Assembly (NCBI GenBank): GCA_000310025.1
Contig: FN649739.1
Span: 3,216,751 to 3,236,855, forward strand
Source of the DNA: Ectocarpus siliculosus
Taxonomy: Eukaryota; Sar; Phaeophyceae; Ectocarpales; Ectocarpaceae
Direction of reading: 5' to 3'
Length of the DNA: 20,105 nt
Shown: positions 10,411 through 20,105 of the stretch, piece by piece
How the letters are laid out: every line of letters starts with the position of its first letter
How positions within the stretch are numbered: the first letter of the stretch is position 1
Made by a program: the position numbers and the translations under genes
The notes under the pieces: model-generated
Database searches by the model: none
Seen by the model: only the letters and a program-made list of their open reading frames with translations
What the model was told of the DNA's origin: nothing

Positions 10411-10463
10411 GCTAAAGGTGGACCGATGCACGCCAAATCGTCTTGACGAACTTACGCATCCCT

Positions 10464-10937
10464 ATGCCCGCCCCCCGCCGACTTCGTTCATCTGCCGATT
10501 TTCTCGTCCAATCAGGGCCCGGGGACAGAACGTACGTGGTCATGAAACCGACTACACTCCACCCTCCCGGCTCCACCCCGACGGTATTTCCCGGCCTCAC
10601 CACCACCGACGGCGGCCGCGGCGGTGGCGGCGCCTCCCCCTTGGCGATGTCGCTCGGCTTTCGGCTGCGAAATCACCCTCACCTCCGCCGATTCCATGGC
10701 GACGGGTCCGGCGGCGGCGAGGCCACCAACTCCTTCCTCGATAACGTCAGGGAGGCGATCGTGGACAAGGCGCGGGAAGTCCGCGACGCCATCGGCACGA
10801 AGAAGTACGACGAGCTCACGCTTTTCAAGAGGAAGGGGCAGCCCACGGTTCACGTGCCCACCGGCCGCGTTGTTGCCGAGAGGGCGTGGGCCGAGCTCGA
10901 CGCCCGCCGGACCGTGCGGTTCAGCCCGAGGATAGGG
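10464..10937 (+). CDS. Exon 1 of the hypothetical coiled-coil gene
   Basis: 158 codons ending after PRIG, directly before a GTAAGC donor. Third positions are dominated by C and G from 10542 onward. Two CCAAT-like or GC-rich tracts (CCAATCAG at 10509 and GGCGGCCGCGGCGG near 10611) lie inside it, which leaves room for a later true start at 10647. Confidence 0.6.
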
Positions 10938-12073
10938 GTAAGCCGGCTTGAATTTGTTGCTGCCGCCTTTCCAATACCGAAAAGGGTTCCGTTCTTTGCT
11001 CAGTGTATTTTAAAACCGGCGGCGCCGCTCCTACTGACGAGGACTCCTTCCGTGGTCACAGGTCGACCACAGGCCAAACGTAACGCAGCATCAGATGAAG
11101 CATGAAACCCTTCGTACAACCTAGAAAGGGCCCAGAGAATAGTCACGATAAATAATAGTTCGAGTTAGTAATTTGTTGTTCATGCTCATTCTCAGCAAGT
11201 GCATGTGTTTGGGGTTTCCCCCGATGGATCTTTAGAGGCGTTTCGCTCATGGCGTCCCGACTCGGAGATAATTTGAAAATCGCAGCTGCATCGTTCGTGG
11301 CTGAGGCATGTGGCCCTCCCAAACAGAAAAGTAGTATCCCCAGGTGATAGATACACTTCTAGATGCCAAATAAAAACATCACGTAGGCCAAGTGGCGAAA
11401 TAGCGTTTCATAATATATTTCGGGAAGGCGTACGTAGAAGCCAGCTTGTAAGCACCTGACAAAAAATCACATACAGCGTCTGTCGCACAGCAAACGAACG
11501 ACACTCCGGTGTCTTCAGGCGAAGGGTTGATGCTCGTCTAAACAAGGAACCAATCCTGACCTGCCCAAGCTTCACTCTCTCTTGCCACCTGTCCTGCTCT
11601 CTTCCGCCGCCCAGGCGGTCCTGGTGCCAACCCGGAAGGAAACCTTCCCCAAGCCCGCCGACGTGGCGGCTAGCTTCGTCACGGCCGAGGAACGTGCCGG
11701 GGCAGAGAAAGAAATTTCACCGACAGGATCAGGTAGATCGGAGTGGCAAGCGCTCTTGTTGGAGACTCGCCACGAGGCCAGGGAGAGGCAAGAAACACAG
11801 GCTCAGCTTCAGCGAGAGCGGGACCAAGAAGAGGAGCAGCGGCACGAATGCCAGCAACCGAGAAAGCTTGCACAGAAAGAACGCCCCCGCAACGTGTTCG
11901 AGGCGCTCTTCCTTCAACGGCGAAACACGGCCAACAGCAACGACGAGGTCGACGGGCCGAGACATGGGGGCTTTGGCGTGAGGCGGCCGTTGGGGGAAGG
12001 TAGAAAGAAAGTCCACCATGTATCCGACCCCTCCCTCGTCGGCTCCAACGCAGAAGGGAGGACTGCCGGGTAA
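10464..12073 (+). CDS. Two-exon hypothetical gene, coiled-coil protein
   Basis: Exon 1 is 10464-10937 and exon 2 is 11615-12073 (TAA). The intron (10938-11614) has a GTAAGC donor and a pyrimidine-rich acceptor ending CAG, and the junction is phase 0. The product is 310 aa. The start is the first ATG after an in-frame stop at 10413. ATGs at 10542 and 10647 are alternatives, and the last gives a basic, presequence-like N-terminus (MSLGFRLRNHPHLRRF). Residues 62-92 are basic and Gly-rich, then comes a helical segment FLDNVREAIVDKAREVRDAI. RTVRFSPRIGAVLVPTRKE straddles the junction, and RTVRF fits the RVxF protein phosphatase 1 docking pattern (weak evidence). Residues about 201-247 are Glu/Gln/Arg-rich and probably coiled coil, and the C-terminus is Gly/Arg-rich. 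Codons are strongly G/C-ending, which supports real coding. I recognise no family or function. Confidence 0.65.
11615..12073 (+). CDS. Exon 2 of the hypothetical coiled-coil gene
   Basis: 152 codons plus TAA, starting AVLVPTRKETFPKPADVA and containing the coiled-coil-like EWQALLLETRHEARERQETQ region. It follows a tract of CT-rich sequence ending CCCAG. The A/T-rich sequence after the stop (to about 12165) is likely 3' UTR. Confidence 0.65.
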   Translation, partial: AVLVPTRKETFPKPADVAASFVTAEERAGAEKEISPTGSGRSEWQALLLETRHEARERQETQAQLQRERDQEEEQRHECQQPRKLAQKERPRNVFEALFLQRRNTANSNDEVDGPRHGGFGVRRPLGEGRKKVHHVSDPSLVGSNAEGRTAG

Positions 12074-13733: not shown

Positions 13734-13834
13734 ATGCCTACCAGCGGGCGGATATTAGCCCTTCTGTCGATGGTGGTGGTGTTGGTGCCGCTGGTGGATG
13801 CTTTTGCCTTGGGCTCTTCGGCGGGGTGGCACAC
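13734..13834 (+). CDS. Exon 1: signal peptide and ASAFAP-like cleavage motif
   Basis: Encodes MPTSGRILALLSMVVVLVPL followed by VDA|FALGSSAGWH. A short N-region with one Arg, a 16-residue hydrophobic core, and a cleavage site with Phe at +1 form the signal typical of proteins imported into four-membrane red-type plastids. It ends with two bases of a Thr codon before a perfect GTGAGT donor. Confidence 0.85.
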
Positions 13835-16800
13835 GTGAGTATTCTCCTTGATGTACTTTTTGAAGGAAATGATGACACCGATGATGTCAATCTGAATCGA
13901 ACGAACGTGCGCAGCTACAACACTACTGTTGTGAATTCTGTGAAGCGCACTGTGATGCACGATGTAAAATCGGGATGACGAACAATAGGTAGACGTTGTT
14001 GCAGCCGTAGTAGAAGGCCACGCGATGCAATCCGCAGAGTAGATGAAGTACGGACTCCGAAAACATGTGTCATACGTGTACAACAATCTGACATCTGACA
14101 CGATCTGACGCAGTAGATATGTCATCCGCTAAACAGCCAAACCGCCGTCGAGCCAACCGTCACACCAACCGTATTCCCCCCAGAGAGTCTCTTTGTGGGC
14201 CCTGTGCTTGCTTTCCACAAGCTTGCATTGTTTGTTGTGTGACAACAGATATGCGTCGTGTACGGCAGCAGCAGTAGTCTCTCCGCTTACTGACAGCTCA
14301 TGCTGCCCTCGCAGCCCTGGTCGAGCGAGGCAAACTGTTGTTGCCTTGAGGTACAGCAGTATATACAAGCGTCGCGGCACCAGCAGACGATCTGTTCCAG
14401 CTGGAAGGAGCCCACCTTGGTTTGTCTAGCAGTCGGGTTGTCGGGTTTTGTCCATCTTTTCTGCTCGCGCTCCCGTGTTCTCTCCCACTGTTGTACTTGT
14501 ATGCATACAGGAGTGTACAGCCACAGCTACAACAGCAGCGCACACACAACATAACCGTGTAGGTGACATAAGATATCACAACCCCTGGGCCGATTTTCAA
14601 AGGTCGACTTCTCTACAACAGAAAGAGTGGAGGCGACGAAAATGGTGGTGTTCAAGCCGTCTCGTCGAGAGCTGTCTGAAGACATGTCATGTCATTTATG
14701 TATCCTCTTCGTCGTGGACTAATCGAGCTTTGAAGATCAGTCCAGGGGGTGTGGTATCTTGTGTCACGTACGGTAGACAGTTGGGCCCCAGCCCCCCAGC
14801 CCCCCACACCGAATTAATATTCTGCGGTTTGCATGCCTCAACTCGGTGGCAAGAGGGCTGTGACCTTGTCGCGCATCCCCTTCCGTACCATGCGAACATT
14901 GTTAATAGGCCAGTTGTCATGAACGAGCGCTTTCTCCGAAGTTCTCGTCCTAGTTTTTCGTCCCATTTAATATTGTCGCCGCATACAGTATGCAACCTCT
15001 CGATATTTGATTGACGAACCTGCTGGGGTTACACCGGCGAAAGTTCTAACTCTAGATTATTTTTGGTGTTTTCGACATATCTCGCTTCAACTTTTAACGC
15101 TAGAAGCGCACCGCAGTCCTATCGTCCTGTCGTTACTTTGTTGGTTTGCTCACGACCACACGCTCTCCACCTCAGTTATTGACTGCGATCACCACATACA
15201 GAGAGATTCGAACCCGAATCCAGAGAGCGAAGAAGGTCATGCTTACCAACTGACCCAATCACAGGGCGACCATATCGAGTAAGTACGACGTACCCAGCAG
15301 CCTGCTGTTCAGCCCTCGTATGGTGAGGTGTAACCGTTTCATGTGCAACAACTTTGGGGGAAACAACTTCGACGGGATTTTTGTCCGACGCTCGGTTGTT
15401 CAACCAGGGGGGCGAACGCCTGACGACCCAGCTTCATTGAAATGAACAGTCGATGGTTATTACCCCAGCGCCGCTGTGTTCGATGCTGGCACGTTTGGTT
15501 CCTCGTATTGCTCCGTATGGAGCATTGAAAATCGGTGGGGGTGAATCAGAACTAGGACACGAATTACGTTTGTTTTTCAAGCTGAACAGGATCTGTTAGA
15601 GTTCCGTGCGTGGAACCAGTTCTGACAGTGACCAACGGACAACTTTATCATTTGTTTTTTCAGGATGGCACTTGAAACACCAAAATCAACGATGTCCATG
15701 CGCAAGCAGGAGAAGAACAAGTATGAATGATTCTTGTATTTTCGTTTGTTCGGCGTGTTCACGACAACTGCTGCATTTCACCGAACACATCCACAACCGG
15801 TCGTGGTGATCAAGCAGGCACGCAGTTGCAAGACCAGCGACCAGATCTACGAGATCTCTGACGACGATGATGATGGCGAAAAAGAACCGGAGAGAACGAC
15901 GATACGCCGAGGCGAAGAACAAGAAGTCCTCGGGTTCCAAGCAACAACCGTCGGGGGCAACGTCTAACGCGAAGTGGCTGCAGGTGCTGCCTTATTCTGT
16001 CTTTTTTGCTTGCTTGTTGTTTGTTTGTTGTTGTTGTTGTTGTTGTTGTTGATCTGTTGGTTGCCGCCGCTTCTGCAATTAGGGTTGTGGTGGTGGTGGT
16101 GGTAGTGGTTGTTGTCGTTTTTTTTGTGCATGCTGTACCCACGATGCCTTTGCTGCACCAGCCAAGCCTTGTTGGACGTAGGTGCTTCCTGTGAAGTAGG
16201 CAGACCATTTCACCACCACGACCACGACCATCATCATCACCGGGTCAACACATACCCTGGATGAGAAGGAGCCAATAAGCATTCATACCTACAGCAAACA
16301 ACGAACAGACACAATGGCGCCAAGTTCGTTTTTTCTCGGTGGTATTGTCAGCCCGACGCGTGATGCTGCTGCCTTTGGGTCTACCTTCGTCTTTTTTGTC
16401 GTGCAGGTTCTCGACAGCACCTCCGAGCTGGAGCCCGGCAGTGTGAAGGTAAGGGGCAAGCGGTGATGTGCGTGCTCCCCCCGGCAAATCACTTGGGCGG
16501 GAATCGCGCGAACCTCTTGACACCATCGTCCTCTGTGCGTACATGATGTCTTTTGTGGGACGCTTGGGCGCTACCAGGTAGCAGGAGAGAGAAGAGGGGT
16601 GACGTCGTGTTGAAGAAAGAATGGTTTGAGACGCAACGGATTATTCTCTGTTATTCGGCGTCCCATGTCGATTCCTCTCGCACCTGCCCACCGTTCTTCA
16701 ACTTCTCTCGCTCGGTTTTCGTCCGGGAGGTGAACCGGAATGAAACTCCCTACCAAGCGCCGGCCGCTCGCCACCTCTCATGACCGGGTGACCGACGAAT

Positions 16801-19800
16801 CAACCGACGTGCCGCCTTGTACCGCCCCCCCCCAAAAAAAAAAGAAATATCGCACGCGGACAGGCGCTCTAGCTGACGGCCGATTTCTGTTACCTCGTGG
16901 GTCTTCGTTCTGCAATGACTTGTCATTGAGGAAAACAGGTTGTGTCAGGAAAATACAAGGGCGAGGACAGAGTGTTCACCCTTGCCGCCTACGGCGGGAC
17001 GTACTACGCGGTCAGCGAAGCCTGCGGGCGCTGCAAGTTTCCGTTGGTGAGCAGGAGATCGCCTGAGAGGTTTATTGACGGAGCCATGAGAAGTCGCATG
17101 GCACCCGTGTTTCTTTCTATTGGAAGTTTGAAAATCTGATATCTATATTCATAATTCGCACAGCAGTGGCACACCCGTGCTTCAGTGTGTTGGAAGTTCA
17201 AAATCAAATTCGTTTTGCGGAAGAAGATGGTATGTTTTCAGCGCGTTCCAATGTTTCTTTCCGCTGCGCCCATGGGACCATCTCTGCCGTCGTCGCTGTG
17301 CTGCTCCTCACTGAGGTGGCGGACGACGAGCACAGAGACACAGGATCTCTCACACATGAATCCTTTTCTTCCGTCACCCAAGAAGAAGACATTTTCACGT
17401 ATTCGCTCCGCTTTTTTTCTGGAGGAAAGCTGCGGGAGGAAAGCCCGTGGCAATGCCGCAATACGCCAACCCCCCCCCACGGCTGTCAAAAGGACCAGCT
17501 TGACATGTTTGGTGTGGGCAATGAAAGAACGTAGCCGCCCATCACTTGGGTGAAAAAAATGGGTAGAGCTGTTGTACCTGGTTGAAAACAAATTTGGATC
17601 ACTATCGGAACGCAACAGATGTGATAATGAACACTCAATAGCAATAGAAAAATTGGCAGCGGTGGAATCAGCGAGGCCAGCCCACGTGCCGCGTGAAATT
17701 CCTCCAATTTCTCCCCAAAACAAACGGGCAAGTCGAAACTTGAGCTCGTTGGTGTGGGTCGTGATGCACCGAAACCTCTGCCGCTTTGCCATGTTGCGTT
17801 TGATCTGTCTTGATCGAGCTTGCATAGGTTTGGATAGCCATTACAATCACAGCTCTTGCGAAACTACGCCATCCCTATGAGATATCCTGAAGGGATGGGC
17901 TTCCATGATTTCTTCGTCGATCAGTGTTAGGAGTTTAGATTGCGCCGCATTTGTCTGTTGGCCGGGTACACGAAACCCAAATTTTGCAACGCCTGACAGT
18001 TTTCCATCAAATGTCTGGAGTTTACAACGGCGGACACCCTTGCGCGGAAAGAGATCGGGCACCTCGCCACAGAGCAGAGTCAACCACGGACGAGACTTGA
18101 CAGCTGCTACTTATTGGTGATACCAAAGCATGTCATCCACTTGGGGGGTCGCGATTCGACAATCCCCAACAGAGATCGGTGTCGTCAAATATGATAAAAG
18201 AAAATGAAGCAAGTGAGATTCTGCGTAGAACGCAGGAGCAACAGGAAGTTCAAATATCCCGCCGCCACGCGACACCGCAACAGGCCCACAACTCTCTGGG
18301 TTAGATAAAACCCGCGATGGGCAAATCTCTGAGTACTCCATCCGCAGACCTCCATCTAGAGTTATGGCCGGTGCCGTAGAAATCCCACATCCTTGGCTTA
18401 TTGTATCACCCGCAGTTCTCAGTCCAAAGAAATTTCCCCAGCACGGCCACGCCGTCAAGTGCACAGGTTTTTCGATAAGGTTGGACCGGTTGAAGCTCTG
18501 GGCAGGTCGGCCGTCGGGGCGCTATAATACACCCGCACCGACAAAGGACGACGTGAAATCACCTCTAATACCACTGCTGTGTACGTACAGGCACGCGTCG
18601 TGCTTTTTCGATTGCGATGTTGGGCTGTGTGGGCTGCAGAGACGCGTTGTGGAAGGTCTGCCCTGACCCATGACTGTGGGGGGGGGGGGGTTGCGTAGGA
18701 GGTATCCCCGCTATAGAGGGACGCCTTGTTCTCTCTTTTCGCATCATGCTAAATACATATCTCAACACAACTACACTTTTGGACCAAAGAAGTCGCACGC
18801 AGCCAGCACCCACATGTTCTTCACACCAAACGATAGCTGAGCACCATAGCTGCTCGTCCCTGCATTCACTACTCCAAACGGTGGCCTACAGCGTTCGCGA
18901 GATCGATACCCAGTGCAAAAAAAAAACGCGGCGCAATCTAAACTCCTAACACTGTGAGGACTTGTTCTGGAGGTTAGAACACAGGTGAAAGAAGATTGAA
19001 TCCAACGCATGTACACTAGCGCGCTCGTCGCCATGAGAATGGTATAGCTGGCATTGACATTTTGGCCCAATGATGCATACGTGGCGTTGCAATTGCTTGC
19101 TACGGCTGTCGCTGCTTCCGCTCGTCCCTGGGCAGATCAACGGCAAGGTGAAGCTGTTGACGGGGGGGGGGAAGGCGGAGGACGTGAAGCCGGGGGTGGA
19201 GCAGGACCCAGAGGCGGAAATTGCGATCGCGTGCCCCCTGTGCGGAGCGATGTTCAACTTGAGAACAGGTGACCCGCTTGTCGGAGATGGTGCTATTTAC
19301 TACTGGAGAGTTTCTCTTTTTGTTCGTTTCGTCCCTTCTACCATCGCGCCCAGTCTGTTCACCTTTCAGTCTCTACGTGGTTGGCGTGCTAGTCTGGGTT
19401 GCACAGGATGAAGGTCACACATGGAGAGGTTTTTCTGTTCTTCTGCCCCACCGTCCTTGTGCGGTGCCTTTGTTTCGATAGCGATGGTAAGGCATTGTGT
19501 AGCGCGGCCTACCAGTCGCGTGTGAGCATGGCAAGGCATGGATGACGCGGCTCGTGGAATGATGGATGGTTTTTCCCTTCTGGTTGGTTACGTAGTAGAG
19601 CAGACGTAGCAGAAAACTTACACATCACGTCTCCGAAAACTGCAAATGTGATGAAAAGATAACGACGGAAACACACCACCGTAACTGAACAGCACCTGAT
19701 TGTAGCCGGACCACGCCGCATAATGCAGAGCACCGCAGTATTCTAGTAGAGCACACGGCGAAGCTGCCATTCTACCAGATTTATTTTGTGTTGTGTTGAT

Positions 19801-19850
19801 TCGAGTCCTTACCCACAGGCGAAATACTTTCAGTTCGGGGGTGTTGGGTT
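13734..19850 (+). CDS. Plastid-targeted Rieske-fold protein with two CxxC pairs (3' end incomplete)
   Basis: Exons are 13734-13834, 15664-15720, 15818-15983, 16407-16448, 16939-17046, 19136-19268 and 19819 to about 19850. All six introns are GT...CAG and every junction keeps the reading frame. The product is at least 207 residues: signal peptide 1-23, a Ser/Thr/Arg/Lys-rich transit peptide and linker 24-105, then a Rieske-like domain from about 109. In the domain, ACGRCKFPL stands where a Rieske protein has C-x-H and CPLCGAMFNLRTGEIL where it has C-x2-H. The four possible ligands are therefore C151, C154, C191 and C194, with no His. Known Rieske domains bind a [2Fe-2S] cluster with two Cys and two His, so this one may bind an all-Cys cluster, zinc, or nothing. 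I infer a thylakoid or stromal role, possibly PSB33/TEF5-like. The C-terminus is lost in poor sequence. The first ATG after an in-frame TAG at 13665 is taken as start. Confidence 0.85.
14545..14795. repeat. Inverted repeat in intron 1, MITE- or foldback-like
   Basis: The segment beginning GTGACATAAGATATCACAAC at about 14563 and continuing through CCCTGGGCCGATTTTCAAAG to about 14605 reappears reverse-complemented at about 14725-14777, with about 80% identity over at least 45 bp and weaker similarity on both sides. The arms are separated by about 120 bp. No ORF or target-site duplication is evident. Confidence 0.6.
15195..15275 (-). repeat. tRNA-like segment (possible SINE head or tRNA pseudogene)
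   Basis: On the minus strand there is a box A-like TGGGTCAGTTGGTAAGC (15257-15241), followed 25 bases later by a box B-like GGGTTCGAATC (15215-15205). This is the order and spacing of an internal RNA polymerase III promoter in a tRNA. I could not fold a good acceptor stem, D stem or T stem (only three of five T-stem pairs form), so it is not a normal tRNA gene. A tRNA-derived SINE or a decayed tRNA is more likely. It lies antisense in intron 1 of the Rieske-like gene. Confidence 0.45.
15664..15720 (+). CDS. Exon 2: transit peptide part
   Basis: Follows TTTTTTCAG. It completes the Thr codon and adds MALETPKSTMSMRKQEKN plus two bases of a Lys codon, before a GTATGA donor. Basic, Ser/Thr-containing and without a hydrophobic stretch, as expected for a transit peptide. 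Confidence 0.75.
15818..15983 (+). CDS. Exon 3: basic transit peptide and linker
   Basis: Completes Lys53 and adds 55 codons: HAVARPATRSTRSLTTMMMA, then KKNRRERRYAEAKNKK and a Ser/Gly/Gln-rich linker to KWLQ. Another frame is open over much of the exon (an Asp-rich reading), but only this frame fits both neighbouring junctions. The GTGCTG donor is weak. Confidence 0.75.
16019..16125 (+). repeat. TTG and GGT microsatellites in intron 3
   Basis: A (TTG)n run (about 16019-16051) is followed, after ATTAGGG, by a (GGT)n run (about 16087-16106) and a T8 tract. A further CAC/GAC/ATC triplet-rich stretch lies at 16211-16241. Open frames here are poly-Cys, poly-Val, poly-Asn or poly-His translations of the triplets and are not genes. 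Confidence 0.85.
16407..16448 (+). CDS. Exon 4: start of Rieske-like domain
   Basis: A 14-codon exon, VLDSTSELEPGSVK, between TCGTGCAG and a GTAAGG donor, phase 0 on both sides. The L-x-P-G-S-V-K pattern is the usual first strand region of Rieske domains. Confidence 0.75.
16939..17046 (+). CDS. Exon 5: first CxxC half-site
   Basis: 36 codons, phase 0 at both ends, from VVSGKYKGEDRVFTLAAYGG through TYYAVSEACGRCKFPL to a GTGAGC donor. The Tyr-Ala-Val-x-x-x-Cys strand matches the Rieske strand before the first ligand loop. The usual C-P-H-R-G-A-P-L is replaced by C-G-R-C-K-F-P-L, moving the second ligand by one position and changing it to Cys. Confidence 0.85.
17100..17205 (+). repeat. Small diverged tandem duplication in intron 5
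   Basis: CACCCGTGTTTCTTTCTATTGGAAGTTTGAAAATC-like sequence (from about 17102) recurs about 69 bp later from 17169 with substitutions. Only the shared words CACCCGTG and TTGGAAGTT are exact. Confidence 0.45.
17922..18954. mobile_element. 1.03-kb element with 27-bp terminal inverted repeats in intron 5
   Basis: The left end starts CAGTGTTAGGAGTTTAGATT, followed by GCGCCGC (17922-17948). The exact 27-bp reverse complement ends at 18954. Weaker similarity continues inward for about 20 bp to TACCC. The CAGTG terminus resembles hAT-type DNA transposons, but no 8-bp target duplication is visible at the borders. Inside, minus-strand frames at 18464-18111 (ending TPQVDDMLWYHQ) and 18083-17847 (FPRKGVRRCKLQTFDGKLSG) look weakly coding, yet the second runs out through the repeat. 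No transposase motif is recognised, so it is probably non-autonomous. Confidence 0.7.
19136..19268 (+). CDS. Exon 6: second CxxC half-site
   Basis: Follows CTGGGCAG and reads INGKVKLLTGGGKAEDVKPG, then VEQDPEAEIAIACPLCGAMF and NLRT plus one base of Gly203. CPLCGAMFNLRTG matches the second Rieske ligand loop, with Cys in place of His. A run of ten Gs encodes TGGG. It is in frame as read but is error-prone. The donor is GTGACC. Confidence 0.85.
19819..19850 (+). CDS. Exon 7, truncated by poor sequence
   Basis: After CCCACAG the bases GC complete Gly203 and the frame continues GEILSVRG. The joined LRTGEILS is exactly the usual Rieske continuation, which supports this acceptor. From about 19850 the homopolymer-inflated end makes the frame unreadable, so the remaining strands and any C-terminal membrane segment cannot be seen. 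Confidence 0.6.
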
Positions 19851-20105
19851 ATCCCCGCTCCCCCCCCCCCCCGGGACCCCCCCCCCCCCCCCTTTTTCCC
19901 ACCGGGGTTGGGTTTTCGGCCCTTGGGGCCCTTTTTTTTTAAAAACCCACACCTTTTTGGGGCCCCGAACCCGGGTTTTCCCTTTTTTTTTTCCCCTTTT
20001 TCTTTGGGGGGGAACCCAAAAGGGGGGGGAGATTTTTAATTTGTGGGGGGGCCAAAACCCCCCCCCCCCCCACCAGGGAAAAATTCCCCCCCTTTTGGAA
20101 AAATA
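19851..20105. other. Low-quality contig end with inflated homopolymers
   Basis: From about 19850 the sequence turns into long single-base runs (C14 and C18, T and G runs), like the opposite end of the window. It cuts off the last exon of the Rieske-like gene. Nothing here can be translated reliably. Confidence 0.85.

Follow-up and report, generated by a model that had tools for sequence, protein, structure and literature searches.

A divergent Rieske-like protein of Ectocarpus siliculosus with cysteine pairs in both metal loops and a possible single-metal site

We analysed a 20,105-nucleotide stretch of the Ectocarpus siliculosus genome (GenBank assembly GCA_000310025.1, contig FN649739.1, forward-strand positions 3,216,751 to 3,236,855; the whole stretch is referred to below as the window), which contains a gene for a Rieske-like protein with pairs of cysteines in both metal loops. 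The gene has six in-phase exons within the window and one last exon beyond an assembly gap, and yields a 248-residue product. All six window exons have GT/AG borders and matching phases, and these splice signals and phases define the exon structure. Exon 1 (13734-13834, + strand, as for exons 2 to 6) supplies the start methionine, a predicted signal peptide that is most hydrophobic over residues 7-25 (mean 2.56) and an ASAFAP-like site (..LVPLVDAFALGS..). It is followed by exon 2 (15664-15720), a basic linker or presumed transit peptide that is phase-compatible with GT/AG borders, and by exon 3 (15818-15983), a basic low-complexity linker with the final residues KWLQ. Exon 4 (16407-16448; VLDSTSELEPGSVK) holds the first part of the Rieske domain. 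The first metal loop, YYAVSEAC(151)GRC(154)KFPL, is encoded by exon 5 (16939-17046), with the C151 codon at 17023-17025 and the C154 codon at 17032-17034, and the second, C(191)PLC(194)GAMFNLRTG, by exon 6 (19136-19268), with the corresponding codons at 19232-19234 and 19241-19243. Joined, exons 4 to 6 read ...GGTYYAVSEACGRCKFPL / INGKVKLL...AIACPLCGAMFNLRTG. Guanine-cytosine (GC) content at third codon positions averages 0.76 over the coding sequence and 0.81 within the last exon, compared with an overall intron GC of 0.46-0.56. The junction of exons 3 and 4 is supported because the tryptophan of KWLQ aligns to the tryptophan that opens the canonical Rieske profile described below. An in-frame ATG at 16314 (MAPSSFFLGG..) was considered as a start and disfavoured; the polypyrimidine-AG before 16407 and the same tryptophan match favour the spliced model.

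The assembly gap lies inside the gene, where a homopolymer-rich, low-quality edge (window 19850-20105; L004:1-1876) gives way to roughly 1.6 kb of N. The initial annotation had joined exons 4 to 6, which stand as in-phase exons with GT/AG borders, to an exon 7 at about 19819-19850 (+). We set this doubtful exon aside: it belongs to the homopolymer-rich gap edge running to N, and the likeness of its continuation to canonical C-termini is at shuffle level (2161 of 5000 and 2764 of 5000 shuffles equal or better). In its place we use a post-gap exon at L004:2054-2193 (window-equivalent 21903-22042), which is preceded by an AG acceptor, stays in frame with exon 6 and closes with a stop codon. The post-gap exon is the likelier last exon, weakly better than the one in the window, and the Rieske profile barely separates the two choices (32.4 versus 29.3 bits). 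The metal ligands are untouched by this choice.

Homology to Rieske domains was assessed with a profile built from ten canonical domains: a paralogue elsewhere in the genome (L005), the part of PDB chain 8jng that was matched, and eight genes carried on plasmids, each annotated as ferredoxin or NirD or left unannotated. The algal protein was excluded from the profile; the plasmid genes came from a set of 21 plasmid records for which L005, and not the algal protein, had served as the query. This profile gives the algal protein 32.4 bits, compared with 9.7 bits for the top shuffle (20,000 made, 16,546 scored), and a copy with every cysteine changed to serine still scores 21.0 bits. Smith-Waterman alignment to L005 and to 8jng placed the algal protein above all 2000 shuffles in each case. 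The likeness spans both halves of the domain (W..V, PG, G-x-YYAV, PL..G.V and the second loop), Pfam reports a Rieske_2 match at E 4.3e-05, and the NCBIfam matches, weak at E 0.001 to 0.088, are mostly to Rieske ferredoxins or NirD. Homology to Rieske domains is well supported, if to a divergent member, and the C-terminal 145 or so residues would be expected to adopt the Rieske fold. The profile, pairwise and shuffle tests support the initial proposal of a Rieske-fold domain in which cysteine pairs replace the Cys-His pairs.

C151, C154, C191 and C194 are the only cysteines in the 248-residue model and all lie in the two Rieske ligand loops, a placement already seen in the initial annotation and confirmed here from the rebuilt exons and codon positions. 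Twenty-one canonical Rieske rows were aligned, and 14 of these read C-H-(L/Q/K/E/A)-C-H where the algal protein has C151, R153, C154, C191 and C194; in the other seven, either a single loop is aligned or the first loop is gapped or shifted. Relative to the 14 rows, C151 and C191 occupy the positions of the ligand cysteines, Arg153 replaces the first histidine and is followed by Cys154, and Cys194 replaces the second histidine. The canonical [2Fe-2S] ligands C-x-H and C-x2-H are thus absent along with both histidines, and C-G-R-C and C-P-L-C stand in their place. By a rough estimate, the chance of two extra cysteines landing at these knuckle positions is 1.3e-4, and the confinement of all four to the knuckles is unlikely to have come about through drift. 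We also considered alternative splicing. Arg153 is not removable by a GT-AG intron because neither GT nor AG occurs between the C151 and C154 codons; a single GT (19240), not paired against every acceptor, lies between those of C191 and C194. We also scanned introns 4 and 5, and the sequence as far as the gap, for two patterns: C-x-H-x3-6-L, and C-x2-H with G, S, K or N as the next residue. One C-x-H turned up, in a stop-broken stretch of intron 4, and neither pattern occurred elsewhere in the scanned sequence.

The Ectocarpus genome (189 Mb, 492 contigs) was the sole eukaryotic genome covered, and the Cys4 Rieske locus is the only match within it. We read 12 of the 17 genome matches to the Rieske family PF00355, and the exons holding a Rieske loop show C-x-H or C-x2-H. 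From their motifs, we take L012 to be a cytochrome b6f-type Rieske protein, L015 a NirD-like domain and L008-L011 oxygenase-like Rieske exons; a separate rubredoxin match (L078) lies elsewhere in the genome. The paralogue L005 (G000:C27:389041-389277) is canonical, has a GDWCPFPP stretch and is close to 8jng, a chain named methanesulfonate monooxygenase ferredoxin subunit, which it matches at E 1.5e-36, compared with E 0.051 for the algal Cys4 protein. Protein searches of 301, 282, 398 and 294 prokaryote genomes, cyanobacteria left out, gave 27 matches at E <= 0.01. Among the 22 that were read, 14 have a Rieske domain, in every case with canonical C-x-H and C-x2-H, and eight are without a Rieske profile match. 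A search of viral contigs returned no relative. The highest pairwise Z-scores (14.6-17.6) belong to the bacterial Rieske ferredoxins L057, L059 and L083, a ranking that is biased in that these loci were found with the algal protein; 8jng is fourth and L005 lower. These three ferredoxins share the long inter-loop stretch of the algal protein but differ from it in their canonical C-x-H / C-x2-H ligands. The pattern CPxCGxxFxxxTGE, of a kind otherwise found in zinc ribbons, has 33 exact matches in a scan of genome contigs that included archaeal ones, and no Rieske landmarks were found near them, 31 of the 33 being readable on both sides (L028 is stop-broken and L033 starts at the motif). Archaeal zinc-ribbon-like proteins with this pattern (L018, L027, L049 and the Thermococcus/Desulfurococcales loci) have the same knuckle as the algal second loop.

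The N-terminus consists of a hydrophobic signal, then DAF, then a basic Ser/Thr-rich stretch (residues 25-105, with 19 K+R and 4 D+E), a pattern compatible with an ASAFAP-type bipartite plastid presequence, and this ASAFAP-like sequence would suggest a plastid location. No membrane helix was found beyond the signal peptide in the model with the post-gap last exon, where the best 19-residue mean after residue 40 is 1.14. The protein had initially been placed, tentatively, with the PSB33/TEF5 group. It resembles PSB33/LIL8/TEF5 in having a Rieske-like domain with altered ligand residues and may share their plastid location, but it differs in having no membrane helix and in having four cysteines where those proteins conserve one ligand cysteine. 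PSB33/TEF5 are described in the available text of PMC12164590 as carrying one or two membrane helices at the C-terminus but no ligand residues, and in that of PMC8003979 as conserving only the cysteine of the second motif; an earlier review differs, its accessible portion stating that the Chlamydomonas TEF5/PSB33 orthologue retains the binding residues (PMC6006212). Placement with PSB33/TEF5 is unsupported because those are membrane proteins described without ligands. The algal protein lacks a membrane helix, its likeness is of a general Rieske kind, its alignments with the bacterial Rieske ferredoxins (themselves found with the algal protein) are no poorer than that with the PSB33-like paralogue, and that canonical paralogue lies elsewhere in the genome. 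The paralogue, L005, is probably of the soluble PSB33-like kind represented by Chlamydomonas Cre02.g093650 in the available text of PMC8003979, a kind with which the algal Rieske domain can be aligned end to end (L005 and the structurally solved relative 8jng_A). That no membrane helix was found in the algal protein is a further likeness. Soluble PSB33-like proteins keep the two histidine ligands whereas the algal protein is without them, and where L005 and 8jng have GDWCPFPP after the second loop the algal protein has GEIAGEQPKGLAQ, a criterion taken from those two sequences and not from a published definition.

The C-x2-C / C-x2-C pattern has been made in the laboratory, in the H44I/K45C/H64C triple mutant of the Sulfolobus Rieske-type ferredoxin ARF (Iwasaki et al. 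2005, in PMC2946596). As far as the available text of PMC2946596 goes, this archaeal mutant forms a mononuclear Fe(Cys)4 site, a figure legend giving a mononuclear (Fe/Zn) centre, while the double His-to-Cys mutant H44C/H64C is largely impaired in cluster assembly. Rieske loops have been likened there to the knuckles of rubredoxin and zinc ribbons, and the triple mutant shows that the two kinds of site are only a few changes apart. The algal gene appears to carry this pattern naturally: the ARF mutant is a laboratory construct with isoleucine in place of the first histidine, whereas the algal protein is the product of a natural eukaryotic gene with arginine there. Both algal loops resemble zinc and rubredoxin knuckles. 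The likeness to rubredoxin lies in the two CxxC pairs and in the second knuckle, CPLCG, which is identical to that of the PDB rubredoxin 1bfy (presumably from C. pasteurianum); the rubredoxin family PF00301 was not reported for the algal protein at E up to 1. The CxxC knuckles of zinc ribbons are likewise present, but the top zinc-ribbon family score is 17.6 against a cut-off of 29.3.

We propose that the change of the metal loops from C-x-H / C-x2-H to C-x2-C / C-x2-C would give them a geometry like that of the knuckles in rubredoxin and zinc ribbons, and that one metal ion would be bound in a tetrahedral Cys4 site instead of the Rieske [2Fe-2S] cluster. The metal would be somewhat more likely zinc than iron, and the protein would most likely serve for binding, as a module that the metal stabilises, perhaps close to the photosynthetic membrane; with iron, the protein could act as a rubredoxin-like one-electron carrier. 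Because the ARF triple mutant was mononuclear and the double mutant largely failed, a single Zn or Fe ion bound by the four cysteines is favoured over an all-cysteine [2Fe-2S] cluster. The initial suggestion that an all-cysteine site would alter the redox potential or bind zinc remains reasonable, in that a changed site could hold zinc or show different iron chemistry, and the engineered analogue makes it more specific. Overall, we give an even chance to the proposal that this nuclear gene encodes a soluble, probably plastid-targeted Rieske-fold protein in which four cysteines hold a single metal ion. The more ambitious version, in which a natural and conserved brown-algal plastid protein has had its Rieske site turned into a rubredoxin-like Fe(Cys)4 site and serves as a new soluble electron carrier, is doubtful. 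If the proposal is true, a natural protein with the engineered changes would show that evolution took the path from Rieske to rubredoxin-like site, and the switch between cluster and single metal could be compared in one natural pair, the Cys4 protein and canonical L005, from the same genome.

Several observations weigh against the proposed single-metal site or the Rieske-fold protein that would hold it. No relative with all four cysteines was found in the prokaryote sets, the viral contigs or the pattern scan of genome contigs, and no natural all-cysteine Rieske protein was apparent from the titles and abstract openings returned by literature searches, which is no proof of absence. The Rieske_2 match of the joined product has a score of 23.8, below the curated cut-off of 27, and PF00355 was found only on a fragment (E 0.015; 15.7 against a cut-off of 20.3) and was not reported for the full-length model; when the genome was searched exon by exon with PF00355, the algal Cys4 gene was not among the 17 matches. 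In the PDB, 8jng (E 0.051) is outranked by an unrelated protein, 9ibp, which is the top match at E 0.023. The prokaryotic match L055 (E 1.2e-4), one of the eight without a Rieske profile match, is non-Rieske yet shares SE-x-CGxC...CPLCG, and therefore the cysteine motifs alone can mislead. Within the gene model, exons 1 to 3 are based mainly on splice signals and phase, no confirming homologue was found for exons 1 and 2, and the post-gap exon is weakly similar to canonical C-termini, with 994 of 5000 shuffles (L005) and 85 of 5000 (8jng) equal or better. The first knuckle has lysine where rubredoxin has glycine, a change that may alter the turn.

CxxC pairs are common thiol switches, and the two algal pairs could be redox-switchable disulphides (acting, for example, with plastid thioredoxin) on a metal-free, clusterless Rieske scaffold of the kind proposed for PSB33/TEF5. 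That plastid Rieske-like domains can function without cluster ligands is indicated by PSB33/TEF5 in the available passages of PMC12164590 and PMC8003979. However, a clusterless domain would have no evident reason to retain or acquire exactly four cysteines in knuckle geometry, in loops that resemble those of zinc proteins and rubredoxin, and we consider this explanation unlikely, though it ranks first among the rivals. Next in rank, and unlikely as well, is an all-cysteine [2Fe-2S] cluster held in the Rieske fold, which would have a potential below that of a Rieske cluster and act as an electron carrier. In its first loop, CGRCKFPLINGKV, the algal protein is similar to plant-type ferredoxin domains with their CGxC loop, CGRCK is common to L081 and the algal first loop, and PDB chain 7c3a aligns with cysteines at all four places (Z 8.9), but its database match is at E 0.44. 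Plant-type [2Fe-2S] ferredoxins carry the signature C-x4-C-x2-C ... C, whose first cysteine is replaced by Ala146 in the algal protein, and no Fer2 family was reported in Pfam searches of it. The engineered ARF proteins also speak against such a cluster, since H44C/H64C largely failed in assembly and the C-x2-C version was mononuclear (available text of PMC2946596).

The remaining two rivals question the domain or the gene itself. The protein might be a zinc ribbon or another Cys-motif metal protein whose likeness to Rieske domains is superficial: CPLCGAMFNLRTGE is of the CPxCGxxFxxxTGE kind known in zinc ribbons, weak Pfam zinc-ribbon matches were obtained (E 0.0032 to 0.36), and the strongest prokaryotic match of one search, L055, has both CGKC and CPLCG and is not a Rieske protein. 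Yet the similarity to Rieske domains runs through both halves and no scored shuffle comes near the profile score, even when the cysteines are masked, which makes this explanation very improbable. Least probable of all is that the gene is decaying or mis-assembled and its ligands have drifted. The locus is the sole match in its genome, divergent, interrupted by a gap and host to a transposon-like element in intron 5; it nevertheless retains open frames, intact splice signals, an in-frame stop in the last exon and the contrast between third-position and intron GC given above, and drift would be unlikely to put the protein's only cysteines in the knuckles.

Elsewhere in the window, two long open stretches at about 10416-12073 (+) resemble exons of another gene and gave no Pfam match at E up to 1. 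EsV-1-7 repeats are numerous in the genome, with a match for each of the 150 candidates scored out of 880, and the available text of PMC7457493 describes the EsV-1-7 family as expanded in brown algae. The element in intron 5 (17922-18954, no strand assigned) lies outside the protein-coding sequence, is about 1.03 kb long and has inverted 39-bp ends that are 90% complementary. A 27-bp end of this element has 14 genome copies at up to two mismatches and none in a reversed control. Twelve of these 14 copies face each other in six pairs, with a spacing of about 1 kb in four pairs, 1.6 kb in a fifth (C51) and 5.6 kb in the sixth (C323). The element probably belongs to a family of terminal-inverted-repeat DNA transposons.

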